NCBI GenBank assembly: GCA_016722945.1
Contig: JAEQMT010000057.1
Coordinates: 1-64,000, forward strand
DNA from: Desulfofustis sp. PB-SRB1
GTDB taxonomy: Bacteria; Desulfobacterota; Desulfobulbia; Desulfobulbales; Desulfocapsaceae
DNA: 64,000 bases
Direction: 5' to 3'
Notes under the pieces: generated by a model
Seen by the model: the letters and a program-made list of their open reading frames with translations, nothing else
Told to the model about the DNA's origin: nothing
Database searches by the model: none
Part shown: in pieces, positions 14,869 through 19,580 of the stretch
How the letters are laid out: the number at the start of each line of letters is the position of its first letter
How positions within the stretch are numbered: position 1 is the stretch's first letter
Program-made: the position numbers and the translations under genes

Positions 14869-15498
14869 ATGGTACGCGTCTATGAATTTTTTCTGAGCGG
14901 CGGGCCGGTGATGTGGCCGCTGCTCGCCTGTTCGCTGGTGGTGGTGACCGTGATCATCGAGCGGGTACTGTTCTGGTATGGGCTCAATGCCCGGCGTGAT
15001 CGAAAATTGATGAATACAGTTCTCAGTCTGGCGGAGCAGGGTGAGTGGGAGCAGATTAAGATCCGCACCGAGGGCAACCGGGATTACGTGATCACCGTGC
15101 TGGTGGTGGGGATCCTGCATCGCGATTTCGACATGGGTGCGGCCATGGAGGCGGAGACTGAAATGGTGCTGCAGCGCATGAACCGGTTCATGCCGGTGCT
15201 TGATACGATGATTACGGTGGCCCCGCTGTTGGGCATTTTGGGCACGGTACTGGGGATCATCAGCTCGTTTAAGATGCTCGGTGCCGAAGGAATCGCCGAC
15301 CCGAAACTGGTCACGGCCGGTATTGCCCAGGCGCTGGTTACCACCGCCACCGGCCTGATTATCTCAATTTCGGCGGTCATCCCGTATAACTACTTCAACA
15401 CGAGAATAGACCGTGCCCTGCACGGCATCACCACCTATGCCACCAGCCTGGAGGTGGTCTATAAGAAACTGGTGAGAAGCGTCGAGTACAGACCATGA
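14869..15498 (+). CDS. exbB: ExbB/TolQ/MotA-family proton channel protein
   Basis: A 209-residue inner-membrane protein with three transmembrane segments (about residues 14-32, 110-132 and 150-175). The region MITVAPLLGILGTVLGIISSFKML and the segment GIAQALVTTATGLIISI are hallmarks of ExbB/TolQ/MotA. ExbB with ExbD forms the proton-motive-force motor that drives TonB. The gene overlaps exbD by 4 bases (ATGA), and the position directly behind receptor and binding proteins indicates a motor dedicated to corrinoid uptake. Confidence 0.93.
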   Translation: MVRVYEFFLSGGPVMWPLLACSLVVVTVIIERVLFWYGLNARRDRKLMNTVLSLAEQGEWEQIKIRTEGNRDYVITVLVVGILHRDFDMGAAMEAETEMVLQRMNRFMPVLDTMITVAPLLGILGTVLGIISSFKMLGAEGIADPKLVTAGIAQALVTTATGLIISISAVIPYNYFNTRIDRALHGITTYATSLEVVYKKLVRSVEYRP

Positions 15499-15905
15499 AA
15501 ATCGTGCGCCGTCACGGTAAACCGGTGCGCATCGAAATGTTGCCACTGATCGATATCGTCTTTCTGCTGCTTATTTTTTTCATTTACGCGATGCTCTCCA
15601 TGGCGGTTCACCGGGGGCTCGATCTTGACCTGCCGGAGTCCGCGGTTACCACGATCAGCGACCAGAGCACCTGGGCAATCTCCATCAAACGGCGTAACAC
15701 GGCCATCGATATCTACCTGGAAGAACAACGCATTCAACTGGATGATCTAACCAGGATCCTGGCCGACCAGCCGGACGAGCGGAAGGTGCAACCGGTTCTG
15801 CTGTTTGCCGACGAAGAGGTCTCCTATCAACAGCTTTTCACGGTTCTGGACGCACTGCAGCAGGCGGGCTATCGGGATATATCCCTGCAGGCCAATCAGC
15901 AATGA
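15495..15905 (+). CDS. exbD: ExbD/TolR-family protein
   Basis: A 136-residue bitopic inner-membrane protein. The N-terminal cytoplasmic tail leads into MLPLIDIVFLLLIFFIYAML, with the essential transmembrane Asp in LIDIVFLLLIFF as in ExbD/TolR. The periplasmic part binds peptidoglycan or TonB and ends with the typical VLDALQQAGYRDISLQ strand-helix. It overlaps exbB (ATGA) and tonB (ATGA) and is therefore translationally coupled to both. Confidence 0.93.
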   Translation: MKIVRRHGKPVRIEMLPLIDIVFLLLIFFIYAMLSMAVHRGLDLDLPESAVTTISDQSTWAISIKRRNTAIDIYLEEQRIQLDDLTRILADQPDERKVQPVLLFADEEVSYQQLFTVLDALQQAGYRDISLQANQQ

Positions 15906-16726
15906 TCGATACACGGCTCTCACTGGCCTTTGTTACCGCTCTGTTTGTTCATCTGGCCGTACTGGCGTTGCCGCTGCATACGCAGTTGCCGGAAGTGACC
16001 ATGCCAGGCGCGGCGGCCGTGTCGATCCGGGTGGGGGAAATCTTCCAGCGCCCTGAACAGGCGGTTGCCGATCAGAAGCCACAACCGGTTGCCGAGGCCG
16101 CCCCGGAGCCCGATCCAACACCGGTTGTGGAGACCATCACCATGGTGAAAGAGCAGGTGGCGACGGCTGCGGTGGCATCGTTCGAAGATGAACGGGCAAT
16201 GGTCGAACCGATAGAAAAGAGAGAACCGAAAGTTGTCGAAATAGTCCCTGAAATTGTCCAAATAGAAGCGACCCGGCATAAGAAGCTCACCCCGGTGACG
16301 CGCCTCGTTCAATCGGAAAAAAGTGATGGCACCGCTGAATCGTCACAACCTTTGACTACGCCCGCCAATCCGGCGTCCGCACAAAAAAGTGGTGATGGGC
16401 CATCGGCGGCGCCGGCACACAGTGAATCCGCATCATCTGAAGCCGCTGCCGTCAGCGAGGCTGTACCGCTCTACCAGGACAATCCAAAGCCGGTCTACCC
16501 ACCGCTTGCGCGCAAGAGGGGCTGGCAGGGCACCGTTTTGCTGGAGGTGCTGGTGGGCGCTGACGGTAATGTCGTTTCATGTGTGGTTCAACACAGCAGC
16601 GGCTATGAAGTGCTGGACAGGGCCGCGCTGCGGGCGGTGTGGCGCTGGAAGTTCTCGCCCGGCCGGGTGCACGGCGTGGCGCAGGCCATGCCCGTCACGG
16701 TTCCCGTTACATTCAACCTCGAGTGA
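15902..16726 (+). CDS. tonB: TonB energy transducer
   Basis: A 274-residue protein with a short cytoplasmic N-terminus, one membrane helix (about residues 7-24), a long Pro/Glu/Val-rich periplasmic spacer, and a C-terminal TonB domain from about residue 190 (NPKPVYPPLARKRGWQGTV; GYEVLDRAALRAVWRWKFSP). It links the ExbBD motor to the TonB box of the receptor. It is the last gene of the riboswitch operon; its spacer is longer than the E. coli one, as is common in Desulfobacterota. Confidence 0.93.
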   Translation: MIDTRLSLAFVTALFVHLAVLALPLHTQLPEVTMPGAAAVSIRVGEIFQRPEQAVADQKPQPVAEAAPEPDPTPVVETITMVKEQVATAAVASFEDERAMVEPIEKREPKVVEIVPEIVQIEATRHKKLTPVTRLVQSEKSDGTAESSQPLTTPANPASAQKSGDGPSAAPAHSESASSEAAAVSEAVPLYQDNPKPVYPPLARKRGWQGTVLLEVLVGADGNVVSCVVQHSSGYEVLDRAALRAVWRWKFSPGRVHGVAQAMPVTVPVTFNLE

Positions 16727-18505: not shown

Positions 18506-19273
18506 TTACCTGCGGACTATTGTACGCAGTCTGTCTTTCTGTTTGCTGCTTATACCCAGCACGTCCAGTTCCTTTAGCAACTGTTCCCTGGTACCGTATC
18601 CCCCGACGTAGCCGTTCAGGCGGCTCACCGCTGTGGAATTGACGAAGTCCTCATGGTCGGGATAGATCGCCGTCATTTCCGTTTTTAACCCAAAATCGGT
18701 TTTGAGCATGTATTTCTGATGATAGTCTTCCGCCATCGTAAAGGATTTCACCGGGATAATCTGCGTTTCAACTGGAGAGCCGAGGCGCTGCTCCAAGGCC
18801 GATTTTGATGCCTGGGCGGCGTCTCGCTGGGCGGTATTGTGGTAAAAAACAGCATGCAGGTATTGTCGGGAATAGGGTTGTGAGGTCGGATCATGATCCT
18901 CCCAGAATATCTTCAGCAATTGTTCGTAGGAGATTATTGCGGGATCGTAGTCCAGCTGCACTGTTTCCGTATGGTCTCCCATGCTCCGGTAGGTGGGAGA
19001 CGCTTTTGACCCGCCGGCATAACCAACCCTTGTTCTGATTACACCATCAACAATCCCGAACCGGGATTCAACACCCCAGAATCAGCCCAGGCCGAAGGAG
19101 GCCGTTTCGTAGCTCTCTGGTATAGTTTGGTCAATGGGAACCACTATAGACTTTGCGATTGCCGGCTTGCCTTCCGTCTCTGCTGAGTAGGCAAAGGTTG
19201 AGCCGACAATGGTGGCGAATGTGATCATGAGAAATAGTCCTGAAGTAGATGTTGTAATTTTTGTTTTTTGCAT
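18506..19273 (-). CDS. msrA: Secreted selenocysteine-containing peptide-methionine (S)-S-oxide reductase
   Basis: Reads as one 255-residue protein if TGA at 19082-19084 encodes selenocysteine (residue 64). Residues 1-30 are a signal peptide. The frame continues across TGA as FGLG-U-FWGVESRFG, exactly the MsrA catalytic GCFW with Sec for Cys, then RVGYAGGSKASPTYRSMGDH and LDYDP. No stop occurs in the 33 codons between TGA and the next ATG. The rest of the protein has no cysteine, as in known Sec-MsrA enzymes that lack a resolving Cys. A 7-bp hairpin lies 13 bases after the UGA. Reduces methionine-S-sulfoxide, here probably in the periplasm. An annotation starting at 18982 would lose the active site. 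Confidence 0.88.
19052..19068 (-). promoter_or_regulatory. Bacterial SECIS-like hairpin in msrA
   Basis: On the coding strand AATCCCG pairs perfectly with CGGGATT around a GTT loop (GGUUC if the closing C-G opens). The stem begins 13 bases after the UGA and the loop lies about 20 bases downstream, the window expected for SelB-dependent recoding; a G/U-containing apical loop is also the bacterial SECIS pattern. Confidence 0.75.
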
Positions 19274-19580
19274 CGCATCACCTTATGGTAACCGCAGTGC
19301 TTACGCCGTGGGGCGTAGAACAGGAACATGCACTGTCTTGTTCCTAAAATAATGAGTCGGCCCGCCATAAGATCAAGCATGTACCGAAAGAGTCTGACAC
19401 ATTCGCTGTAACCCCTTTTATCCGGCCGCTCTACAGAGAAAATCTTTAGAGATACATAATTGATAGAGTTACGCAGACCGGTTTGGCTCAGGTTTGCCGG
19501 TGAAAAGATAGCTGAAGTGGGGCTATTGGAGAGAGGTTCTGACAAGTACCGGGAAAGAGGCTGGCTCAATTACGATCAGA

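Follow-up and report, generated by a model that had tools for sequence, protein, structure and literature searches.

The TGA-interrupted msrA gene of Desulfofustis sp. PB-SRB1 very probably encodes an exported selenoprotein methionine sulfoxide reductase

The window, i.e., the whole 64,000-nucleotide stretch of Desulfofustis sp. PB-SRB1 DNA analyzed here, carries an msrA gene that is interrupted by a TGA at its catalytic codon. As judged from its sequence, we consider it very probable that this gene encodes a working methionine-S-sulfoxide reductase that contains selenocysteine, is exported, and belongs to the 1-Cys/Sec, helical-domain type represented by CoMsrA of Clostridium (Alkaliphilus) oremlandii. 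The selenoprotein reading had been put forward in an earlier note on this DNA, and it is supported by the sel genes of the genome, the agreement of a downstream hairpin with a published SECIS model, the alignment with other Sec-MsrA proteins, and the fact that no Cys orthologue of this type was seen in the phylum. Largely as expected, the gene belongs to an already known kind of Sec-MsrA, and export is its distinguishing point.

A single TGA interrupts a 255-residue MsrA frame

Plain ORF calling splits msrA into a 63-aa fragment (19082-19273) and a 158-aa fragment (18506-18982). When the TGA was read as selenocysteine (U), a protein of 255 aa was obtained that is free of Cys and has its one U at position 64, within FGLGUFWG. 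Thus, the protein lacks a resolving Cys and conforms to the 1-Cys/Sec type. The particulars of the earlier note held in each case: the TGA (19084-19082) stands at the catalytic Cys of GCFW with both sides in frame, 33 stop-free codons separate it from the next ATG (residue 98), the downstream fragment has 158 residues, and there is no Cys in the rest of the protein. Other TGA-interrupted frames within the 64-kb window showed no recognized motif. Reading through the TGA restores the gene and reveals a whole clade of such interrupted msrA genes. The features of the locus are listed in Table 1.

TABLE 1 Features of the msrA locus in the window
Feature	Position	Strand	Description
msrA selenoprotein gene	18506..19273	-	ATG at 19273 to TAA at 18506-18508, one in-frame TGA, 255 aa; PMSR and MsrA_helical, 51 homologues with the same TGA
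UGA selenocysteine codon	19082..19084	-	Residue 64, catalytic position of GUFWG; aligned to CoMsrA residue 16 (Sec/Cys)
Bacterial SECIS hairpin (candidate)	19052..19068	-	Stem of 7 bp; loop (GUU) 20 nt past the UGA
Shine-Dalgarno AAGGTGA	19278..19284	-	4 nt before ATG; AGGTGA match at 4-nt spacing
Predicted export signal	19181..19273	-	Residues 1-31: KTK and hydrophobic GLFLMITFATIVG; probable cleavage site behind YSA; by inspection and hydropathy
MsrA catalytic domain	18695..19108	-	Residues 56-193; PF01625 over 58-193, CoMsrA alignment from residue 56
C-terminal helical domain (CoMsrA-type Sec-MsrA)	18518..18652	-	Residues 208-252; PF20939, ungapped alignment to 7c13/4u66

The window protein matches CoMsrA in both domains

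In domain searches run with C in place of U, PF01625 (PMSR) scored 146.7 bits against a cut-off of 23.7, TIGR00401 scored 127.1 against 108.1, and PF20939 (MsrA_helical), a domain that was described from selenoprotein MsrA (Pfam), scored 27.2 bits against 23.7. The best matches among solved structures were all CoMsrA (PDB 7c13, 4u66, and 4lwj; E about 2e-49), and they covered both domains in an ungapped alignment of 198 residues at 39% identity. Both proteins have Sec at the catalytic position (predicted in the window protein), no Cys, and the PF01625 and PF20939 domains, and Sec64, Trp66, Tyr95, Glu103, His185, and Tyr188 of the window protein match active-site residues of CoMsrA, Glu103 corresponding to the essential proton donor Glu55. 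They differ at the N terminus, since CoMsrA, a protein of 209 residues, has its Sec at position 16, whereas the window protein carries a predicted export signal. CoMsrA cannot do without its helical domain, is 20-fold more active with Sec than with Cys, and is reduced by glutaredoxin, not by thioredoxin (PMC4333827, PMC4479559).

In a tree of 73 MsrA sequences, all 39 Sec genes, including that of CoMsrA, fell on one side together with three haloarchaeal Cys genes, apart from the ordinary Cys MsrA (support 100/99), although the haloarchaeal and CoMsrA branches are long and their exact places are unsure. The three haloarchaeal genes are L025, L026, and L027. Since a search for selA in the Halorubrum genome gave nothing convincing (20 bits), they may have been transferred and then have exchanged Sec for Cys.

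Sec-MsrA is an accepted prokaryotic selenoprotein (PMC13188914). It was listed in 2006 for the deltaproteobacterium Syntrophobacter fumaroxidans (PMC1794560), the same enzyme in the same larger bacterial group, compared here as listed, and it also appears in marine metagenomes (PMC2398784); the main texts of these two papers do not mention a signal peptide.

The N terminus of the window protein is of an export type

The earlier note had placed the enzyme outside the cytosol. In line with this, the ATG is preceded by a Shine-Dalgarno sequence and lies three codons after a stop, the N-terminal hydropathy reaches a maximum of 2.4 over 12 residues, and inspection pointed to an AxA-type cleavage site, YSA-E. 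Relatives likewise carry export-type N-termini. The seven other genes of the window's family (L105-L109, L112, and L136) have basic-hydrophobic N-termini that differ in sequence, and elsewhere in the phylum inspection pointed to Tat-like RR motifs, in some cases together with a lipobox (L146, L148, L154, L158, and L173-L175), and to lipoprotein-like signals (L149, L162, and L163); all of these assignments were made by inspection and hydropathy. Most likely, the window MsrA is sent out of the cytoplasm, a conclusion that is well supported by these sequence features, although export itself is not proven.

The note had further called the enzyme notable because it is secreted, which proved half right. 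A literature search, with most subscription journals outside its reach, found no description of an exported Sec-MsrA, but exported N-termini are common in the subfamily, and the window gene is therefore typical of its clade. Since CoMsrA, with Sec at residue 16, leaves no room for a signal ahead of its catalytic domain, export does not characterize the family as a whole. Apart from the window gene, a single MsrA was found in the genome, a Cys-type MsrAB (G000:C45:82983), which shares the MsrA fold and an export-type N-terminus with the window protein but differs in its catalytic Cys (GGCFWCM), its fused MsrB, and its distant position in the tree. As both MsrA proteins have export-type N-termini, no cytosolic MsrA was found in this genome.

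Could the protein be a real selenoprotein that stays in the cytosol, its hydrophobic N-terminus being not made, owing to a start nearer the domain, or not used? About half of the relatives possess a strong start 20 to 40 codons before the Sec codon, and three genes (L110, L111, and L183) have this inner start only. In the window gene, however, there is no ATG in that interval, and the sole nearer candidate, GTG44, lacks a Shine-Dalgarno sequence, whereas ATG1 has AAGGTGA at 4 nt; moreover, export-type N-termini occur in the other genes of the window's family. We thus regard a cytosolic enzyme as improbable and an exported one as the preferred reading.

Many relatives carry two in-frame starts

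An in-frame ATG that lies 20 to 40 codons before the Sec codon, just ahead of the catalytic domain, and is preceded by 4 or more nt matching a Shine-Dalgarno sequence was present in 28 of the 52 genes, a count that ignores kinship and for which the interval and threshold were set after the pattern had been seen in the first 38 genes, the 14 later ones being pooled in. Matches of at least 6 nt precede 14 of 40 inner ATGs versus 1 of 145 in-frame ATGs downstream. Of the 28 genes, 23 also have an upstream in-frame start followed by a hydrophobic stretch, versus 0.6 expected from shuffled upstream DNA, and two more carry a Tat-like signal below the hydropathy threshold. The two-start loci are L108, L112, L144, L145, L147, L149-L153, L155, L156, L161-L163, L167, L168, L171, L172, L176, L181, L182, and L184; the window gene does not show the pattern and has the exported start only.

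From the sequence, it is plausible, if unproven, that one such relative gene gives rise to exported and cytosolic isoforms. A broader proposal, to which we give slightly less than even credence, is that Desulfobacterota Sec-MsrA is dual-targeted: two in-frame ribosome-binding sites in many members would yield two Sec-containing isoforms, one cytosolic and the other exported (by a Sec, Tat, or lipoprotein signal), with window-like lineages keeping the exported start only and a few the cytosolic one only. Alternative N-terminal forms with different predicted localization are known in Salmonella (PMC11005335). With the two-start pattern, the idea that a single bacterial gene supplies two compartments becomes open to testing.

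A conserved hairpin follows the UGA codon

As noticed earlier, a perfectly paired hairpin, AAUCCCG-GUU-CGGGAUU (19068-19052), starts 13 nt after the UGA. The published bacterial SECIS model describes a loop of 3 to 9 nt with an early G, a stem of 4 to 16 bp, a UGA-to-loop distance of 16 to 37 nt, and an energy of at most -7.5 kcal/mol (PMC13188914). The window hairpin (GUU loop, 7 bp, 20 nt) agrees with the loop, stem, G-U, and spacing rules, and its energy of -7.5 kcal/mol is exactly at the limit (z of -1.7 for the hairpin alone). When 45 nt from the UGA on were folded, an alternative helix with CUGGGGU won at -10.7, and the SECIS hairpin is not the minimum-energy fold. This alternative was set aside as a functional structure: it depends on bases immediately following the UGA, and L144, L153, and L024 carry changes in its GGGG strand but keep the core of the SECIS stem.

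Nearly all genes have, at one and the same distance, a core of CCC(G/A)GUU(C/U)GGG with variable outer pairs, and the codon choice is narrow (TTC for Phe in 33 of 37 genes and GGG for Gly in 36 of 37). In a recoding test on 37 genes, in which synonymous codons were redrawn from each gene's own codon usage, 220 of 259 pairs were observed, whereas the 2000 draws gave 150.8 ± 6.5 and never more than 174, and the covariation score of 38 sequences was 0.256 against 0.091 ± 0.019 by shuffling (reached by 0 of 500 shuffles), with 24 doubly changed cells as compared with 7.5 and three pairs showing changes on both sides, both statistics being inflated to some extent by the relatedness of the sequences. 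The covariation signal was abolished by sliding the partner strand, and RNAalifold found the same helix on its own. An Rfam search of the msrA locus gave no match, which is unsurprising, given that bacterial SECIS elements do not form a single family.

Homologues share the TGA at the catalytic codon

All 51 homologues of the window type (50 from Desulfobacterota and 1 from Planctomycetota) have the same TGA at the catalytic codon. A survey of 258 genomes of the class yielded nine further homologues in eight genomes at 50 to 60% identity, each with exactly one internal stop, a TGA (one of the nine is cut off by a contig end); other MsrA among the class matches listed had far lower scores, were of Cys types, and mostly matched over the catalytic domain only. 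Sampling 395 genomes of the phylum added 27 genes at 42 to 53% identity, all with the TGA and one with two, and three further class searches gave 14 additional Sec-MsrA genes. The frames read, including that on the Planctomycetota contig L024, all have U at the catalytic G-U-F-W codon, one of them reading G-U-F-U, and this U is shared with CoMsrA. A scan of named genomes returned mostly ordinary Cys MsrA, together with the Planctomycetota Sec gene (L024) and the haloarchaeal Cys versions (L025-L027).

These data bear on whether msrA is a pseudogene with a nonsense mutation, or a gene with a sequencing error, at the catalytic codon. A change from TGC or TGT to TGA needs one step only, and the second MsrA of the genome, the exported Cys-type MsrAB, could make the Sec copy dispensable. 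Against this, the TGA is common to the 51 homologues, which come from many families and show about 42 to 61% protein identity, the sequence is conserved on both sides of the codon, and the RNA helix behind it is kept by synonymous sites. No Cys member of this type was seen in the phylum, the TGA being present in 52 of 52 genes. Because the TGA is shared by homologues, the pseudogene reading is in effect refuted.

The gene with the G-U-F-U motif (L157, in G606) has a second TGA two codons past that for Sec, where the other genes keep TGG for the conserved Trp; a sequencing error, decay, or a second Sec are possible explanations.

The genome encodes the selenocysteine machinery

All four genes for Sec synthesis and insertion that the earlier note had named are present: selA (C19, 611 bits), selB (C6, 372 bits, full length), selC, i.e., tRNA-Sec with the anticodon UCA (C43, 71 bits), and selD (362 bits). 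The last has an in-frame TGA of its own (motif TCGUAAKI), an indication from the genome itself of active UGA recoding. selD is located at G000:C1:254885-255808 (L020), with a VKOR-like frame nearby on the opposite strand. Among the 37 Sec-MsrA genomes tested, selA exceeded the cut-off in 35, the exceptions (G157 and G599) being incomplete assemblies. In the window's family, selA exceeded the cut-off in 70 of 93 genomes and Sec-MsrA occurred in only 7; Sec-MsrA is therefore patchy. UGA readthrough occurs in bacteria and sets a precedent for a non-Sec reading, but it is hardly conceivable that this organism reads the codon as another residue, be it Trp or a product of near-cognate readthrough, given that the TGA stands for the catalytic Cys and not for Trp, that the Sec machinery is complete, and that selD also has a UGA at its Sec site.

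Proposed mechanism

Because the machinery, the codon, and the hairpin are conserved, we infer that SelB and Sec-tRNA(UCA) would decode the UGA at 19084-19082 as Sec, aided by the downstream hairpin. The N-terminal signal would carry the protein over the inner membrane. Outside, by homology with CoMsrA, Sec64 would attack the sulfoxide of oxidized methionine with the help of Glu103; as the protein has no resolving Cys, the regeneration of Sec64 would require either a separate thiol or selenol partner or the formation of a dimer between molecules, as shown for CoMsrA. If exported, the enzyme would place a potent selenol repair activity in the cell envelope of bacteria that are probably anaerobic, and it raises the question of how a Sec enzyme devoid of Cys is reduced outside the cytosol, given that its sole characterized relative depends on glutaredoxin.

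Gene neighborhoods

In the window, msrA is accompanied by genes for DUF166, DUF533, and pyruvate phosphate dikinase. These neighbors are not shared beside Sec-MsrA in the relatives read, and the gene neighborhood was therefore rejected as a clue to the reductant. At L134, L135, and L142, Sec-MsrA adjoins a conserved OmpR-type response regulator and/or HAMP histidine kinase (75 to 84% identical), and in two of the three an exported Cys MsrAB lies between Sec-MsrA and the two-component system. This arrangement, which the window locus does not have, is possibly a unit for methionine repair in the envelope that is under regulation, similar to HprSR-MsrPQ of E. coli. On the plus strand of the window, at about 14869-16726, an ExbB-family gene (14869-15498, PF01618) is followed by ExbD-like and TonB-like frames, an order that resembles a TonB-dependent uptake locus.
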